Below, in pieces: positions 20,492 to 27,416 of a DNA stretch of 64,000 nucleotides. Position 1 is the first letter of the stretch. Every line of letters starts with the position of its first letter. The position numbers and the translations under genes are program-made. The DNA is from Microlunatus antarcticus (GTDB lineage Bacteria; Actinomycetota; Actinomycetes; Propionibacteriales; Propionibacteriaceae): NCBI RefSeq assembly GCF_014193425.1, contig NZ_JACHZG010000001.1, positions 2,914,001 to 2,978,000 on the forward strand, read 5' to 3'. Under the pieces are notes generated by a model that saw only the letters and a list, made by a program, of their open reading frames with translations, did no database searches and was not told the origin of the DNA.

Positions 20492-21138
20492 GCCCGGCGG
20501 GCCACGACGGCGTAGAGCGGGTCGCCCCGGTAGCGGCCCGCCGGGGTCCGCAGCGAGACCTCGGGCTCGTCGAACCCGCCGGCCAGGCGGACGTACGCCG
20601 CCGCGATCGCGCAGCGGCCGGGTTCGTCGGCGTAGAGCCAGCCCGCGACCGCCTTGCTCGGGAAGAGCCGGTTGGAGAAGGTCAGCACCACCGGCGCTCC
20701 CGGCCGCAGCACGCGGGCGGCCTCGCGCAGCACCTCGACCGGGTGGACGAGGTAGTCGACCGAGACGCAGCAGAGCACGGCGTCGAAGGAGGCGTCGGCG
20801 AAGGGCAGCGTCGGGTCGTCGTTGAGGTCGCGGACCACGCGTTCCGTGGCCTGCGGGTTGGCCTGCAGCTCGGCGGCGTTCATGCCGAGCACCACCAGCT
20901 CGCTCGGTGCCGTGGCCAGGTGCGAGATCCAGGACGACATCAGGTCGAGCACGCGGCGCGGCTCCCCCGCGGAACCGTCCACGCCGAGCTCGGCGTACAG
21001 ACCGGATACCGCGAGCACGGCCCCGTCGTCGATGTGGGTGACCAGGCGCGGCGGCCCGTAGAACTCCCCGTCCGGGCTCTCGTCCTCGCGGGCGAAGAAG
21101 CCGGGCGGGAAGACCTCCTCGGGTCGCGGGTCGGTCAC
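20488..21138 (-). CDS. class I SAM-dependent methyltransferase-like protein
   Basis: Cytoplasmic protein of 216 residues with a Rossmann methyltransferase core. The expected glycine-rich motif I is altered to VLDLMSSWISHL. Later motifs are clear: MNAAELQANPQA, PFADASFDAVLCCVSVDYL, and REAARVLRPGAPVVLTFSNR. This layout matches an actinobacterial subgroup of small methyltransferase-like proteins of unknown substrate. GTG at 21138 overlaps the stop of the inositol phosphatase gene in a GTGA junction, so the two are co-translated. Confidence 0.8.
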   Translation of the reverse strand: MTDPRPEEVFPPGFFAREDESPDGEFYGPPRLVTHIDDGAVLAVSGLYAELGVDGSAGEPRRVLDLMSSWISHLATAPSELVVLGMNAAELQANPQATERVVRDLNDDPTLPFADASFDAVLCCVSVDYLVHPVEVLREAARVLRPGAPVVLTFSNRLFPSKAVAGWLYADEPGRCAIAAAYVRLAGGFDEPEVSLRTPAGRYRGDPLYAVVARRA

Positions 21139-21917
21139 GCCGCGGCGGCGGCCGCGTCGACCAGGGCGGCGCGCGCCTCGGCGACGGACTGCGCGTTCCC
21201 GGCGACGAGCCAGCGCTGGTCGGCGATCAGGACCTCCTCGGCCACCCCGCCCGCGCCGATGACCAGCGCAGCGCCCGGGTACCAGTCCCAGGGGTGCAGG
21301 TTGGCCTGCAGGAACACGCCGATCCGGCCGGTCGCGACACCGGCGAGGTCGACCGACGCCGACCCGAACATCCGCGTCGTGGCCGCGGTCGAGGTCACGG
21401 CGTTCCAGGAGGCGGCCTTGACGTGGTCGCGCAGGTGCGAGGCGTTCGAGTAGGTGGCGACCGACACCTCGGCCAGCGGCCGGTCGGCCAGCGTCGGCAG
21501 CGCGCGCTCGTTCAGCGTCGTCGGGCGGTCCCGGCCGCCGACCCAGAGCTCGTCGCGCGCCGGGTAGTAGACGGCGCCGAGCAGCGGGCCCTCGGTGTCG
21601 ATCAGCCCGATCGCGGAGCACCAGTACGGGATGCCGGACAGGAAGTTGTACGTGCCGTCGACCGGGTCGATGTACCAGGTGCGGCCGCCCGCCCCGTCGG
21701 CGACGGCGCTGCGGGCGCCCTCCTCGCCGACCTGGCCGTCGTCGGGCCGCTCGGCCGCGAGCCGGCCGGAGACCAGCGCCTCGGCGGCGTGGTCGGCCGC
21801 CGACACCACGTCGGAGATCGACGTCTTGAAGTGCGTGTCGAGCCCTGCGGCCAGCATCTGCGACGCCAGCCCGCCGGCTTCGCGTACGAGGTCGGCCGCC
21901 AGCATGTCGTCGTCCAC
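21135..21917 (-). CDS. inositol monophosphatase family protein
   Basis: Magnesium-dependent sugar or inositol phosphatase of 260 residues. The metal-binding signatures are present: GEEGA near residue 65, WYIDPVDGTYNFLSG near residue 81, and the C-terminal HPWDWYPGAALVIGAGG near residue 208. Family members dephosphorylate inositol 1-phosphate, histidinol phosphate or related compounds; the exact substrate cannot be chosen here. GTG at 21917 begins MDDDML. It leads a two-gene unit with the overlapping methyltransferase gene. Confidence 0.9.
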   Translation of the reverse strand: MDDDMLAADLVREAGGLASQMLAAGLDTHFKTSISDVVSAADHAAEALVSGRLAAERPDDGQVGEEGARSAVADGAGGRTWYIDPVDGTYNFLSGIPYWCSAIGLIDTEGPLLGAVYYPARDELWVGGRDRPTTLNERALPTLADRPLAEVSVATYSNASHLRDHVKAASWNAVTSTAATTRMFGSASVDLAGVATGRIGVFLQANLHPWDWYPGAALVIGAGGVAEEVLIADQRWLVAGNAQSVAEARAALVDAAAAAA

Positions 21918-21952
21918 GCCCCGACCCTATGCGGTCGTGCCGGGACCGCCCG

Positions 21953-23044
21953 TCAGCGCGGGGTCCAGCTCGGCGTCCCCACCGTGCCGTCCTGCTCGAG
22001 CTCGCGCTCGTCGTCGCCGTCCCGCGTCACGACCACGAGGCGGAGGCGGTCGTCCGAGTCGTCCGTCGCCCGCCGGAAGACGAGGTGGGTGCCGTCCGGC
22101 GACCACGAGGGGTCGGTGTCGATCTCCTCGCTCGCGGTGAGCTCGTCGACGGCGTCCGGCGGGCCGTCGACCGGCAGGGTCACGACGTGCGCCGGGTCGT
22201 CCGAGCCCTCGACGGAGACGTAGCGGGAGAACGCGATCGTCCGCCCGGTCGGCGCCCAGGCCGGGCCGACGTTGCGCCCGTCGACCACCTGCCTCGGTTC
22301 GGTGGACCCGTCGACGTCGGTGACGTAGAGCGGCCCCCCGCGGCTCCACGAGCCCGAGGCCGCCTTCGGGTAGAGGACCTGGCGGCCGTCCGGGCTGAAG
22401 GTCGGGCTGCCGATCAGCCCGACGTCGAGCGTGCGGAGGAACGTCCCGTCCGTCGTCGCCGTGCCCAGCGTGAAGATCGTCCCCTGCTGGTCGAGCTTGC
22501 ACACCACGCCGAGCGTCCCGTCGACGCTCCAGACGACCTGCCGCAGGAACGGGCACCCGGGCGACCCGTCACGGAAGAGGAGCCGCTGGACGCTCCCGTC
22601 GGCGGCGACGGCGTGCAGGGACGTCCGGTCGCCCGGCCGCTCCCGGCGGAGGTAGAGCACCGTCCGGCGGTCGTGCGACACCACGGGCGCGATCTCCTGC
22701 TCGCCCGAGGCCAGCACCACCGAGCCGCGCCGTCCGGTCGAGCTGATCGTCGACATCGTCCAGTCGTCGCCCACGTTGAAGCGCACGACGATCTGGTCGT
22801 CGGCGAGCGGTCGCGCCGAACGGGGCAGGTCGTCGGTCGGGCCGGCGGGGCTCGTGGCCGGGGACTCGGCGGGTGCGGTGGTCGCCGGGGCCGGGGGTGT
22901 CGCCGCCGGGGCCGTCCGGGGCGGGTTCAGGACGTTCCACCAGACCACGCCGGACGCGGCGGTGAGGACGACCAGGACGGCGACGAGGAGGGTGGTCAGG
23001 CGGCGGGCGTCGGGACGCGCCGTCGTCGCGCCGGGACCGGTCAC
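21953..23044 (-). CDS. membrane-anchored beta-propeller protein (PD40/TolB-like)
   Basis: A 363-residue protein with one N-terminal membrane anchor (RRLTTLLVAVLVVLTAASGV), a Pro/Ala/Thr-rich linker of about 50 residues, and an extracellular propeller built from WD40-like PD40 repeats. Repeat cores are visible as SPTFSPDGRQVLYP, GPAWAPTGRTIAFSR and DPSWSPDGTHLVFRR. Such domains bind proteins or ligands; no catalytic domain is seen. GTG at 23044 is preceded by AGGAT at good spacing. It lies just upstream of the inositol phosphatase gene, with a 35-base gap, and may share its transcript. Confidence 0.8.
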   Translation of the reverse strand: MTGPGATTARPDARRLTTLLVAVLVVLTAASGVVWWNVLNPPRTAPAATPPAPATTAPAESPATSPAGPTDDLPRSARPLADDQIVVRFNVGDDWTMSTISSTGRRGSVVLASGEQEIAPVVSHDRRTVLYLRRERPGDRTSLHAVAADGSVQRLLFRDGSPGCPFLRQVVWSVDGTLGVVCKLDQQGTIFTLGTATTDGTFLRTLDVGLIGSPTFSPDGRQVLYPKAASGSWSRGGPLYVTDVDGSTEPRQVVDGRNVGPAWAPTGRTIAFSRYVSVEGSDDPAHVVTLPVDGPPDAVDELTASEEIDTDPSWSPDGTHLVFRRATDDSDDRLRLVVVTRDGDDERELEQDGTVGTPSWTPR

Positions 23045-23375
23045 GCGAGCGATCCTCGCACGACGGCCGCGTCCGACGAGGCGGTCGGAGCAGCCGGGAC
23101 GGCAGCGCGCGTACGGGCGGTTCCGGTCGGCCGGCACGAGGCGCCGGAGGTCCGGCGCCCCGTGCACCGCGGTCCCGCCCCACCCCCCGGGTGACGTGAC
23201 CGCAGACCGGGCAGCTCGTCGACGCGCGTCTCCCCTGCTTCGTCGAGGCGGCCCGCCACCGCCTCGGCGCCGTGAGCCCGCCCCTGCTGCCCGCGCACGA
23301 CCCTAGGGACGCGACGCCGCGCGGAGAAGGGGGAGAACTCCCCATGCCTCCTGCCCTCGGGAGCTGTGGACGAGG
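23045..23375. other. intergenic region with no visible gene
   Basis: This 331-base stretch separates two leftward genes and should contain the promoter of the beta-propeller gene. Several open frames cross it but none has a start signal or recognisable protein. A short hairpin-like GGGGGAGAACTCCCC lies near 23329-23343. I see no other structure. Confidence 0.4.
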
Positions 23376-24098
23376 TCAGGGCCGGGTCGACGCGTCGGGC
23401 AGGAGGGCGAGGTCGGCGGTGGTGACCAGCTGGGTGGCGAGCGCGTACTCGACGAGGCGGGCCTTGCGGCTGGTGGCGAGCCGCGAGGCGTCCCCGTGCA
23501 GGCCGCGGACCCCCTGCTTGGTCAGCTTGTCGCAGACGTTGTCGAGCTTGCGGTTGAGCTTGGTGGGCGTCCACCCGAGGCGGGCGGCGACCACGTTCGA
23601 GGCGGGGGCCACCGCACCACCCCGGTTCTGGCGCTTCAGCACGGGCTCGCAGAGGCCGACGAGCAGGAGGTGCTGGTCGGGCGTCAGCGACACCCGACCG
23701 ACCGTCACCGACCCGGCCAGCTCGGACCGTTGCCGGACCGGCTCGAAGGGCGACCCGGTCACGAGGATGTCGAGCTCGTAGGTGGTGGGACCCGCGGTGA
23801 ACCAGACGACCGTCCGCGGGAAGACGAGCGGCAGCTGCCCGCCCGGCGCGAGCCAGGCCTGGAGGCCGCCGAACTCGTCCGCGACCGTCGCGCTGAGCAC
23901 GGTGCCGACGTTCGACAGCCACCACAGGTCGCCCCGGTCGGACACCTCGAGGAAGTGCCGGTGCAGGAACGGGTTGTCGTCGATCGCGACCTCGGCGTCG
24001 CGGCCGACGACGAGCGGGTGACCGGGACGGGCCGTGTGGACCTCGCCGCAGTAGTCCAGGGTCAGCCCGGGCAGCCCGGGAGAGGCGGACGTCGTCAC
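23376..24098 (-). CDS. FHA-like protein with C-terminal helix-turn-helix-like domain
   Basis: A 240-residue protein with two parts. Residues about 20-110 resemble an FHA phosphothreonine-binding fold (LVVGRDAEVAIDDNPFLHRHF followed by WWLSNVG). The C-terminal half (LTPDQHLLLVGLCEPVLK, then ARLGWTPTKLNRKLDNVCDKL) resembles the winged helix-like domain seen in actinobacterial FHA regulators. This suggests a DNA-binding output controlled by phosphorylation, which is an inference. GTG at 24098 overlaps the stop of the upstream kinase gene (GTGA), making it the last gene of a three-gene operon. Confidence 0.75.
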   Translation of the reverse strand: MTTSASPGLPGLTLDYCGEVHTARPGHPLVVGRDAEVAIDDNPFLHRHFLEVSDRGDLWWLSNVGTVLSATVADEFGGLQAWLAPGGQLPLVFPRTVVWFTAGPTTYELDILVTGSPFEPVRQRSELAGSVTVGRVSLTPDQHLLLVGLCEPVLKRQNRGGAVAPASNVVAARLGWTPTKLNRKLDNVCDKLTKQGVRGLHGDASRLATSRKARLVEYALATQLVTTADLALLPDASTRP

Positions 24099-25213
24099 CC
24101 GGCACCGCCCGAGCGCAGGAGGAGCATCAGCAGACCGAGGAGCAGGACCGCCGCCATCACCAGGACGAGGACCAGCAGCACGACCGGCGTACGCGGCCGT
24201 CCCGGCGCGGTCTGCTCCAGAGGCTCGGCCGGCTTGGCCGGCGGGTCGTCGACCGGCTCGGGAACGTCGAGATCGGACCGACGCCGCGTCAGTCCGGACA
24301 GGTCGGCACCGGTCCGGGACGTCGTCCGCTCCGCCGCCACGCCCGACCGGCGCCGCCCGGGCACGAGCACGACGTCGGTGGGCTCGAGCCGGAGCTGGCG
24401 CTGCACGTCCTGGAGCGCGTGGACGAAGCTGGCCATCGAGGAGAAGCGGTCGCGCGGGTCCTTGGCCATGGACTGGCGCAGCAGGCCCTCGAGCGCGGCA
24501 GGCACGTCCGGCCGGGCCAGCGGCGGGAGCGGGTCGAGGCGGATCCGGCGGACGAGGGCCGCCTCCGTGTCGCCCGCCCGCTCGAACGGGGCGCGGGCGG
24601 TCAGCAGGTGCCAGAGGGTGGCGGCCAGCGAGTAGACGTCCGAACCGACGCTCGGGGCGGCCGTGTCGAGGAGCACCTCCGGCGGCGACCACGGGATCGA
24701 CATGCCGATGATCCGCTCGCCGACGTCGGCGATCGTCCCGGCGATGCCGAAGTCGCTGAGCGCGGGGCCGAACTGGTTGCGCAGGATGTTGTGCGGCTTG
24801 ATGTCACGGTGGAGGATGCCCGCGCCGTGCGCGTAGGCCACCGCGCTCCCGATCTGGACGCCGGTCTTGAGCACCTCGGCCACCCCGAGCGGGGTCTGGG
24901 CCCGGTCGAAGAGCGTGCCCTCGGGGTAGAACGGCATCGTCAGGTACGGCCGCCCGTGCGCCGCCCGGCCGACGGCGAAGACCGGGACGATGTGCGGGTG
25001 GGCCAGGTGCGCCATCGCGTGGGCCTCGGCGACGAAGCCGGTCGCCTCGTCCTCCGACAGCCCGGTCTCCCGCACCACCTTCACCGCGACGTCGCGGTCG
25101 AGGCTCGTCTCGCGGTAGAGGAAGACGTCGGCGTAGCCGCCCGTGCCGATCCGGCGCCGGTACTCGAGTCCCTCGATCTGCGGACCGACCTCCTCGGGCC
25201 GGCCACCGCTCAC
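24095..25213 (-). CDS. membrane-anchored Ser/Thr protein kinase
   Basis: Hanks-type kinase of 372 residues. The N-terminal domain contains the glycine loop GTGGYADVFLY, the ATP lysine in VAVKVV, the catalytic loop HRDIKPHN and the metal-binding DFGIAG. A 100-residue juxtamembrane linker rich in Arg, Ser, Thr and Pro leads to a membrane helix (VVLLVLVLVMAAVLLLGLLM) at the very C-terminus, with almost nothing outside. There are no PASTA or other sensor domains. GTG at 25213 overlaps the stop of the FHA gene upstream, and its own stop overlaps the FHA/HTH gene downstream. The neighbours are its likely substrates or readers. Confidence 0.92.
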   Translation of the reverse strand: MSGGRPEEVGPQIEGLEYRRRIGTGGYADVFLYRETSLDRDVAVKVVRETGLSEDEATGFVAEAHAMAHLAHPHIVPVFAVGRAAHGRPYLTMPFYPEGTLFDRAQTPLGVAEVLKTGVQIGSAVAYAHGAGILHRDIKPHNILRNQFGPALSDFGIAGTIADVGERIIGMSIPWSPPEVLLDTAAPSVGSDVYSLAATLWHLLTARAPFERAGDTEAALVRRIRLDPLPPLARPDVPAALEGLLRQSMAKDPRDRFSSMASFVHALQDVQRQLRLEPTDVVLVPGRRRSGVAAERTTSRTGADLSGLTRRRSDLDVPEPVDDPPAKPAEPLEQTAPGRPRTPVVLLVLVLVMAAVLLLGLLMLLLRSGGAG

Positions 25214-26307
25214 GGCTGGACCTCGTAGGCCAGCGTGACCACGTCGGCGAGCACGAGGACGTCGCCCGCGGCGAGCGGGACCGGCTCGTACGCCCGCAGC
25301 GGCCGGACCTTGCCGTCGGGCTCGACGAGGGCGGTCCCGTTCGTCGAGCCGAGGTCGCAGACGAGGACGTTCCAGAGGTCGAGCACCACCGAGACGTGCT
25401 GCGCGGAGACGTCCTGGTCGGGGTCCGGCAGCGTCACCAGACGCGGCGGCGGCCCGACCCAGTCGCCAGGCACGTGGGGAGCGCGCCCGAGCACAGCGCC
25501 ACGGTCGAGGACCAGGGTGCCGCCCTCCGGCAGGGCCAGCCGCCCGAGGACCGGGCGGGGTGTCTCGAACGCCTGCTGCGGTGCAACCGTTCGGCGGCAG
25601 ACCCGGCACAGGCCCGCGTACGCCGGTGTCAGGTGCCCGGCCGGGCAGACGGCGGCGAGCACGCGCGGCGCCTGGGTCTCCGCGGCCGGGCCGGCGTCCA
25701 TAACGGCGCGGTGGGCCCGGACCGTGGCCGTCGACGCCTCGTCTTCCTGCGCCTCCACCCCGCTTTGGAGGGTCGCGAAGAAGGGCTGGGTGTCGTCCGC
25801 ACTCGGTGCCTCGCCCCCGCCCTGACCGCCCGCGTCGGCCGAGCGGTCGAGGACGAGACGGAAGGCCGTGGCGGTCACGACCCCGTCCCGCAGCGGCAAG
25901 CTCCGCGCGTGAGGCTCCTCGCCGCCACCACCGCCACCGCCGAACGCCGCGTCGAGCGTCGATCCGTCGGTGAGCGGGAGGTCGAGCCAGGCCCCGTCGC
26001 CGCGGTCGTTGGGAACGTCCGTCCCGTCGAGAGCGAGGGTGAGGGCGCCGCCCGCAACCAGTCGGCGTGCGCCCGTCTCGCGCACGACCAGGAACGCGGG
26101 CACGTCGCGCAGGCCCCGGTCGACGAGGGCCCGGAGGAGGTCGTCGAGGTCCGGGGTCACGTCGAGCAGGTGCCAGCAGAGCTCGACGAGCGGGTGCGCG
26201 GGCGAGAGATCGAGCAGGACCGCCCAGCCGCCGCTCCGGAGGAACGTGGCGCCCGTGCCGCGGTACGTCGCGGCCGCAGGTCGGCCGGACGTCCCCCTCG
26301 GCTGCAC
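25210..26307 (-). CDS. FHA-domain protein with zinc-ribbon-like segment
   Basis: First gene of the kinase operon, 365 residues. The N-terminal 220 residues, containing a WAVLLDLSPAHPLVELCWHLL segment, match no family I recognise; they hold an eight-glycine run near residue 130. A short Cys cluster (CPAGH, CRVC) resembles a zinc ribbon. The C-terminal 100 residues form a canonical FHA domain with GRAPHV, SAQHVSV and the phosphothreonine loop DLGSTNGTAL. It probably docks phosphorylated proteins made by the kinase next to it. GTG at 26307 has no ribosome binding site but lies seven bases after a TACATT box, so the transcript may be leaderless. Confidence 0.82.
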   Translation of the reverse strand: MQPRGTSGRPAAATYRGTGATFLRSGGWAVLLDLSPAHPLVELCWHLLDVTPDLDDLLRALVDRGLRDVPAFLVVRETGARRLVAGGALTLALDGTDVPNDRGDGAWLDLPLTDGSTLDAAFGGGGGGGEEPHARSLPLRDGVVTATAFRLVLDRSADAGGQGGGEAPSADDTQPFFATLQSGVEAQEDEASTATVRAHRAVMDAGPAAETQAPRVLAAVCPAGHLTPAYAGLCRVCRRTVAPQQAFETPRPVLGRLALPEGGTLVLDRGAVLGRAPHVPGDWVGPPPRLVTLPDPDQDVSAQHVSVVLDLWNVLVCDLGSTNGTALVEPDGKVRPLRAYEPVPLAAGDVLVLADVVTLAYEVQP

Positions 26308-26314
26308 GGCGAAA

Positions 26315-26320
26315 AATGTA
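26315..26320 (-). promoter_or_regulatory. -10 box for a leaderless FHA-kinase operon transcript
   Basis: On the minus strand TACATT (26320-26315) fits the actinobacterial TAnnnT -10 consensus and is followed by seven bases (TTTCGCC) before the GTG start. It stands out because the local sequence is otherwise nearly free of A/T runs. Confidence 0.55.
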
Positions 26321-26372
26321 CCGTCCGCCGGGCCGGCCCCGTGGTCGTCGGCCCGGTCTCCAGGGCTGCGGC

Positions 26373-27416
26373 TCAGCTCTTGTCCGCCCAGGCGAGCAGC
26401 TTGTCGACCGGCCAGGTGTTGACGATGCGGTCCGGGTCGAGCCCCAGCGCCTCCGCGCGGTCGCACCCGTACGCGAGGAACTCCAGCTGCCCGGGCGCGT
26501 GCGCGTCGGTGTCGATGCTGAACAGGCAGCCCGCGTCGATGGCCTGCTGCAGCAGCCGGGTCGGCGGGTCGCGCCGCTCGGGACGGGAGTTGATCTCCAC
26601 GGCGACGTCGAAGGTCCGGCAGGCCTCGAAGACGACCTCGGCGTCGAAGACCGACTCCGGCCGCGTCCCGCGGGCCCCCTCGATCAGGCGGCCGGTGCAG
26701 TGGCCGAGCACGTTCGTCCGACGGTTGGCGATCGCGCCGACCATCCGGTGGGTCATGGTCTCGGAGTCGGAGCGCAGCTTGGAGTGGACGCTGGCGACGA
26801 CGACGTCGAGGCGGGACAGCAGCGCGTCGGTCTGGTCGAGGCCGCCGTCCTCGAGGATGTCGACCTCGATCCCCTGCAGCACCCGGAAGGGCGCCATCTC
26901 CTCGTTCAGCCGCTCGGTCAGCGCCATCTGCTCCTGCAGCCGCTCCGGGCTGAGCCCCCGGGCGACGGTCAGGCGCGGCGAGTGGTCGGTGATCACGCAG
27001 TACTCGTGGCCAAGGGTCTTGGCGGTCGCCATCATCTCCTCCACCGGGCTGCCGCCGTCGGACCACGTGGAGTGCGTGTGGAGGTCGCCCTTGAGCCGGG
27101 CACGCAGCGCGGCGCCGCCCTCGACGAGCGGCTCGCGCGCGTCGCGGAGCTGCTGGAGGTAGTCGGGGACCCGGCCGGCGAGCGCCTGCGTGATCACCGT
27201 CGCCGTCTTCGGCCCGACTCCCGTCGCCTTCGCCCAGGAACCGTCCGCCTTGCGCTGCGCGCGTTCGTCGGGAGTCATGGCCGCGACGGCGTCGGCCGCG
27301 CCGCGGTAGGCCTTGACCCGGTAGGTGTCGGACCGGGAACGTTCCAGGAGGAAGCCGATCTCGCGCAGCGCGGCGACGGGGTCGAGCAGCTCGGTCGGCT
27401 CTGCGTGCTCGCTCAC
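26373..27416 (-). CDS. PHP-domain metal-dependent phosphoesterase with helix-hairpin-helix N-terminus
   Basis: Cytoplasmic protein of 347 residues. The N-terminal 90 residues resemble the helix-hairpin-helix region of family X DNA polymerases (RVKAYRGAADAV, TGVGPKTATVI). The rest is a PHP domain with metal ligands in GDLHTHSTWSDG, VITDHSPR, GIEVDI, ASVHSK, LGHCTG and DTDAH. The polymerase domain itself is missing, so it is a PHP hydrolase and not PolX. The substrate may be a nucleotide phosphate or a DNA end; this is unproven. GTG at 27416 is preceded by AGGAG and AGGGA. It is divergent from fasR, 69 bases away. Confidence 0.82.
   Translation of the reverse strand: MSEHAEPTELLDPVAALREIGFLLERSRSDTYRVKAYRGAADAVAAMTPDERAQRKADGSWAKATGVGPKTATVITQALAGRVPDYLQQLRDAREPLVEGGAALRARLKGDLHTHSTWSDGGSPVEEMMATAKTLGHEYCVITDHSPRLTVARGLSPERLQEQMALTERLNEEMAPFRVLQGIEVDILEDGGLDQTDALLSRLDVVVASVHSKLRSDSETMTHRMVGAIANRRTNVLGHCTGRLIEGARGTRPESVFDAEVVFEACRTFDVAVEINSRPERRDPPTRLLQQAIDAGCLFSIDTDAHAPGQLEFLAYGCDRAEALGLDPDRIVNTWPVDKLLAWADKS

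Follow-up and report, generated by a model that had tools for sequence, protein, structure and literature searches.

A predicted four-gene membrane-to-gene relay with an FHA-fold regulator and a candidate operator in Microlunatus antarcticus

A 64,000-nucleotide stretch of the Microlunatus antarcticus genome (contig NZ_JACHZG010000001.1, positions 2,914,001 to 2,978,000; the window below) carries on its minus strand, at the positions given by an initial annotation, three genes for an FHA/zinc-ribbon protein (P1), a Ser/Thr kinase and an FHA-fold protein with a helix-turn-helix (HTH)-like tail (P3), followed by a gene for a PD40 beta-propeller protein. Here, we report sequence comparisons indicating that these four genes were gained recently as one segment, and we propose, with a probability of roughly 0.6, that they form a membrane-to-gene relay in which P3 would bind the palindrome GGGGAGNNCTCCCC, the kinase would phosphorylate its partners and the propeller would sense. 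The initial annotation had described a three-gene cassette; the trio stands, and the gained unit comprises four genes rather than three.

Features of the window (position 1 is its first letter):
25210-26307, minus: P1, 365 residues, GTG start
25852-26274 (about), minus: N-terminal domain of P1, followed by a disordered linker, a zinc ribbon (25597-25647) and a C-terminal canonical FHA domain
24095-25213, minus: Ser/Thr kinase, 372 residues; catalytic domain about 24428-25162, membrane helix about 24128-24184, without an outer domain
23376-24098, minus: P3, 240 residues; FHA-fold domain about 23751-24077, HTH-like helical domain about 23403-23681
23703-23705, minus: codon of Thr132 in the acidic linker of P3
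21953-23044, minus: PD40 beta-propeller protein with N-terminal membrane anchor (alternative GTG start at 23167; Pfam PD40, 2.6e-17)
23330-23343, minus: candidate P3 operator GGGGAGTTCTCCCC, perfect and with no second copy in the window, for which shuffling predicts 0.02
23300-23305, minus: TAGGGT, putative -10 element exactly 24 nucleotides after the palindrome, facing the PD40 gene
26315-26320, minus: TACATT, putative -10 element of a leaderless promoter for P1, 7 nucleotides before the GTG
21936-26370, no strand: segment lacking in the two nearest species, which have an empty site between inositol-phosphatase and PHP genes

Results

The palindrome GGGGAGNNCTCCCC first attracted attention in front of PP2C genes and, in the window, beyond the end of P3. 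The search for further sites covered mostly P3-bearing loci, where 2.85 Mb held 26 distinct perfect copies against 0-2 for each of seven control palindromes; one of the 26 lies inside a called gene (some loci were not gene-called). With at most one mismatch, sites precede 33 WXG-type, 9 PP2C and 7 FN3 genes, one P3 gene and others by about 27-174 bp. A TANNNT motif starts 24 or 25 nucleotides after the palindrome in 39 of 81 distinct sites, other offsets being represented by one to a few sites each, and three further TANNNT motifs stand at offset 34, one helical turn further. This fixed spacing places the palindrome centre near -44, which is the position of class II activators. Because sites persist in P3 loci that have no kinase, as well as beside P3 in divergent settings (L157, L159), P3 is the gene that site-bearing loci share. 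Apart from the window site, no palindrome with up to two mismatches and the 24/25 spacing occurs in the 946 kb of this genome (about a fifth) that was scanned, and 556 kb of same-genus genomes without P3 contained no perfect copy, which is consistent with, and not proof of, dependence on P3. P3 probably binds GGGGAGNNCTCCCC, as judged from these sequence patterns. A second perfect palindrome in this genome (L239:3486-3499, at about 37485 of its contig C1) lies 92 bp upstream of a gene for a secreted FG-GAP protein and 4 kb from a PD40 lipoprotein paralogue.

The AlphaFold2 model of P3 (predicted local distance difference test [pLDDT], 85.9) shows an FHA fold at residues 8-116 (Foldseek match to FHA-1 of Rv1747, 1.2e-5; best VIA Z, 8.8), a flexible acidic linker (pLDDT < 50) and helices at 140-155, 167-174, 178-194, 211-221 and 227-232. 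Residues 182-191 (NRKLDNVCDK), within the putative recognition helix, are almost invariant and rank with the best-conserved regions of the family, which would suit DNA contact. The linker residue Thr132 is Thr in 60 of 62 representatives. Aligned to the FHA consensus, P3 keeps Arg33 (62/62) and departs from the canonical phosphothreonine-binding residues elsewhere: Leu45 occupies the pocket Ser position in 58/62, and at the Asn position Val or Ile prevails and Asn never occurs, which indicates a phosphothreonine pocket altered throughout the family. An FHA-like fold with a DNA-binding-like tail had been suggested for P3; the fold is recovered and the helical tail is family-conserved, with the pocket altered as described. 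FHA domains filled the structure-search list, sequence searches gave no significant solved relative, and no description of P3 or of the palindrome was found in the open-licence papers searched.

Homology to the two nearest species (L219 and L220; blastn) ends at 21935 and resumes at 26371/26372, and the inositol-phosphatase gene (21135-21917) and the PHP gene (26373-27416), which flank the ~4.43-kb segment holding P1, kinase, P3 and PD40, are adjacent in both. With P3 missing from all of the 18 other same-genus genomes listed, one gain explains the pattern more simply than many losses would. The segment shows no G+C shift, and its edges have no long repeats of their own, as mobile-element ends would give.

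The kinase has intact VAVK, HRDIKPHN and DFG motifs (Pfam Pkinase, 5e-35), as expected of a Hanks-type Ser/Thr kinase. Its single membrane helix (residues 344-362) is followed by 10 residues, in agreement with the initial annotation of a kinase that has no extracellular sensor and ends in a bare helix; 76 of 77 kinase relatives with a predicted helix carry at least 83 residues (typically 105-130) beyond it. The comparison indicates that the window kinase has lost an outer domain of ~110 residues kept by its relatives. In the activation loop (about 24670-24750 in the window), most of the kinase family carries GxSxPWSPPE in place of the Thr sites of PknB-like kinases, so that activation-loop control may differ between the two.

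The PD40 protein has a predicted membrane helix at residues 16-34. The main argument that it acts with the kinase in trans is a single protein from the same genus (L242:8218-10299) that joins kinase, membrane helix and PD40 propeller, with the kinase part 46% and the propeller 27% identical to the window proteins. PD40 is a better sensor candidate than the N terminus of P1, as it lies directly downstream, came on the same gained segment and is fused to the same type of kinase in L242; from these relationships, it is probably the sensor of the kinase in trans. An Hsp70-type domain, a membrane helix and a PD40 propeller are likewise joined in one protein in other species of the same order (L241:6539-8935, L240:6598-9279 and L243:7689-10037; Pfam check made on L241), so that a second kind of cytoplasmic domain bears this outer module; the fusion behind an Hsp70 domain suggests that PD40 is movable.

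P1 is predicted to fold at about residues 12-152, to continue as a disordered linker (about 159-208) and to form a C-H-C-C zinc ribbon at 221-237, ahead of its FHA domain. Of the 220-residue domain and Cys cluster claimed earlier, the cluster is thus retained as the zinc ribbon, and the single large domain gives way to a shorter fold and a linker. The FHA domain was rightly called canonical (Pfam, 1.7e-6; VIA Z up to 13.9), its Gly-Arg, Ser-x-x-His and Asn-Gly residues (G274, R275, S301, H304, N323 and G324) being invariant among 28 sequences. Fold searches with P1 returned the FHA domain only, with no match for the N-terminal fold. A degenerate PP2C was rejected as the identity of that domain, the profile comparison with the linked PP2C family giving 0.2% probability, like unrelated controls. 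The proposal that the N-terminal domain is the sensor fares poorly: P1 has no convincing membrane helix or signal peptide, the domain looks cytoplasmic, and it also occurs in relatives whose kinases retain their own outer domain.

Relatives of P3 were found in at least 560 stretches of GTDB contigs, and P3 is present in 19 of the 396 genomes from the phylum and 76 of the 391 from the order (both counts including this genome). A comparison of gene order in other genomes found the trio conserved, as PP2C-P1-kinase-P3, in 17/20 same-order loci (chosen by genus from P3 matches), 8/15 phylum loci and 41/81 top contig loci (best matches, with Micrococcales over-represented). All 25 full-trio loci of the order and phylum samples have PP2C directly upstream; the earlier statement that no PP2C is adjacent is correct here, yet describes an exceptional case. 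Two settings dominate among P3 loci. In one, an extended version of the bifidobacterial PFNA operon, P3 is followed by an FN3/Big_9 protein of ~2,000 residues, MoxR, DUF58 and transglutaminase (TGM); in the other, the same upstream genes and P3 precede an FHA-bearing EssC-like ATPase and WXG100 genes. In Microbacterium, P3 also occurs unaccompanied by the kinase, closing clusters rich in WXG100 genes. Loci L165-L170, L175 and L177 read P1-kinase-P3-FN3-MoxR-DUF58, most also with TGM in the stretch examined, and the nearest tree rows to the window P3 are of the FN3 type from its own family, without strong (starred) support. The nearest relatives of the trio thus sit in a cluster like the PFNA operon; the trio is closest to such clusters, but the window copy is an orphan and not such a cluster. 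A GenBank record titled Bacteriophage sp. (L218; MT835585.1) contains an actinobacterial cluster of PP2C, FHA, kinase, P3, EssC and WXG100, most like that of Brachybacterium, with no phage gene in the stretch read. Contigs titled Planococcus, Sporosarcina and Acidobacteria (L035, L069 and L076) carry Micrococcales-type P3 clusters and are probably contaminated or misnamed.

In this assembly (95% complete, 18 contigs), the sole PP2C_2 match lies elsewhere, beside another kinase, and the MoxR-DUF58-TgpA genes are also elsewhere and divergent; of the PFNA-operon genes the window has the kinase only. No EccC/EssC ATPase or WXG100 gene, the marks of T7SSd or type VII secretion, adjoins the trio. 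An unlinked EssC-like ATPase with two FtsK domains (L146:3683-7939, contig C11 of this genome), 29% identical to the P3-linked EssC, shares its small contig with another kinase, and no palindrome occurs there. A giant FN3 partner elsewhere in this genome was rejected, as Big_9 proteins are present with weak, repetitive similarity. A defense system was also rejected, since PADLOC matches the kinase domain only, as expected for any such kinase.

Both gene junctions overlap by 4 bp (P1/kinase at 25210-25213 and kinase/P3 at 24095-24098), as first noted. The P1 frame opens with GTG 26307, has no further start codon before residue 50 and is not preceded by a Shine-Dalgarno sequence. Among genes called with a simple in-house caller, TANNNT stands 5-8 nucleotides before the start in 9 of 59 in the window, against a rate of 0.00075 at random positions, and this enrichment makes the leaderless promoter proposed for P1 credible. 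Leaderless transcripts are plausibly common in this genome, with P1 one of them. The starts with this spacing are 5271, 7045, 7363, 14584, 19256, 21917, 26307, 27486 and 44930. No sigma-70 promoter or intrinsic terminator was found in 22900-26700, and a hairpin 3' of P3 was no better than shuffled sequence.

Discussion

We propose that the PD40 propeller, membrane-anchored and outward-facing, would sense a surface signal and control the kinase through the membrane. The kinase would phosphorylate P3, with Thr132 as the likeliest site, or P1, or both; P1 would read phosphothreonine through its canonical FHA domain, and the altered FHA domain of P3 might dock constitutively. A P3 dimer would then bind GGGGAGNNCTCCCC, centred ~44 bp upstream of the predicted transcription start, and activate the promoter. 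In relatives, the relay is predicted to act on WXG100 and substrate genes, on the operon headed by PP2C and on the gene for the giant FN3 protein; in this genome, it would act on the PD40 gene itself, closing a feedback loop. The membrane-to-gene relay of the initial annotation thus gains from the conserved gene order, the conserved helical tail of P3 and a candidate operator with fixed promoter spacing, and loses P1 as its sensor.

Several observations weigh against this proposal. About half of the sites have no TANNNT at +24/25, the P1 promoter contains no perfect palindrome, and the PD40 start is 290 bp from the window site (about 165 bp for the alternative GTG), beyond the usual distance. 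Because sites came almost only from P3-bearing loci, their dependence on P3 is not separated from lineage. Pfam finds no HTH above cut-off in P3 (the best is a Fis-type HTH_8, E = 0.043, in 3/25), and no PD40 gene was found beside other P3 clusters.

In a rival reading, another, more general regulator would bind the palindrome, with P3 and P1 acting only as phospho-dependent adaptors on the kinase or the secretion ATPase. P3 often adjoins EssC, an EssC homologue in L060 carries an FHA domain, and the type VI secretion system is a known case of FHA-kinase control that bypasses transcription (as cited in PMC11217815). We consider this unlikely, given the highly conserved helix 182-191 of P3, which suits DNA contact, the sites that remain in loci without a kinase and next to P3 in L157 and L159, and the lack of perfect sites in same-genus genomes without P3. 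About as unlikely is a PD40 protein that is an unrelated passenger, beside a kinase that has no outer sensor and instead responds to P1 or to the state of the lipids or the membrane; the PD40 gene begins 330 bp downstream of P3 behind its own promoter, is not beside P3 in other loci, and has a lipoprotein paralogue elsewhere in the genome, but it arrived on the same segment, sits under the operator and has a kinase-fused counterpart in the same genus. Slightly less likely again is a trio that is the decaying leftover of a PFNA-like cluster with its signaling lost. Its PP2C, FN3, MoxR, DUF58 and transglutaminase partners are absent next door, its kinase tail is gone and P3 is in no other listed genome of the genus; against this, four frames are intact, catalytic motifs and overlaps are kept, a perfect operator and -10 element are retained at canonical spacing, and the empty site points to gain.

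On a wider reading, our opinion is evenly balanced: P3 would found an undescribed and widespread family of FHA-HTH activators of GGGGAGNNCTCCCC promoters. Bound near -44, they would subject actinobacterial genes for type VII substrates, WXG100 proteins and giant surface proteins to control by Ser/Thr kinases. The window would then hold a relay that was moved as a block of four genes, with a separate beta-propeller as sensor and with its wiring redirected to an operator of its own. Type VII secretion and adhesin genes of Actinobacteria often have Ser/Thr kinases and FHA proteins nearby. With a conserved regulator and a candidate operator at precise spacing, the kinase-to-gene link becomes testable and the regulon predictable from sequence in many genera, and the window copy, among the smallest versions, is convenient for rebuilding and assay. 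Any novelty might lie in the regulon.

The PFNA operon of bifidobacteria (pkb2-fn3-aaa-atp-duf58-tgm, plus prpC and fha in some species; PMC8430577) resembles the nearest relatives of the trio, which carry kinase, giant FN3/Ig protein, MoxR, DUF58, transglutaminase, PP2C and FHA protein. It differs in that its description (PMC8430577) has no P3 between kinase and fn3, whereas P3 clusters have PP2C and FHA upstream of the kinase; the window copy retains only P1, kinase and P3, plus PD40. T7SSd of Actinomycetota (TsdA, TsdC, TsdD, TsdH and TsdI; reported in Olsenella and Bifidobacterium; PMC11217815) shares with the wider P3 clusters WXG100 proteins, an EssC with FHA domain, a membrane kinase and a giant Ig-like protein, but is reported without P3, PP2C or the operator, and the window trio adjoins no secretion gene. 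With its altered FHA domain, P3 is reminiscent of EssC from T7SSb, whose FHA domains have no phosphothreonine site and dock on a pseudokinase (PMC11217815). By architecture alone, P3 is likened to EspM (Rv3863/MMAR_5438; PMC7002343), an FHA-HTH regulator of ESX-1 with an N-terminal FHA domain and C-terminal HTH, encoded beside the type VII locus that it regulates; EspM has about 363 residues against 240 and is not described in a kinase-PP2C operon. In Mycobacterium tuberculosis, PknH-EmbR is a relay from kinase to FHA transcription factor, as proposed here for the window kinase and P3, and PknD is a kinase with an outer beta-propeller sensor (PMC4601284). P3 is not a member of the EmbR family, its FHA domain being N-terminal and EmbR aligning by its FHA part (283-381) only, and the PknD propeller is in cis, in contrast to the separate PD40 gene here. 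By analogy, the trio may work like PknH-EmbR and, where it is part of a wider cluster, as EspM does next to ESX-1.
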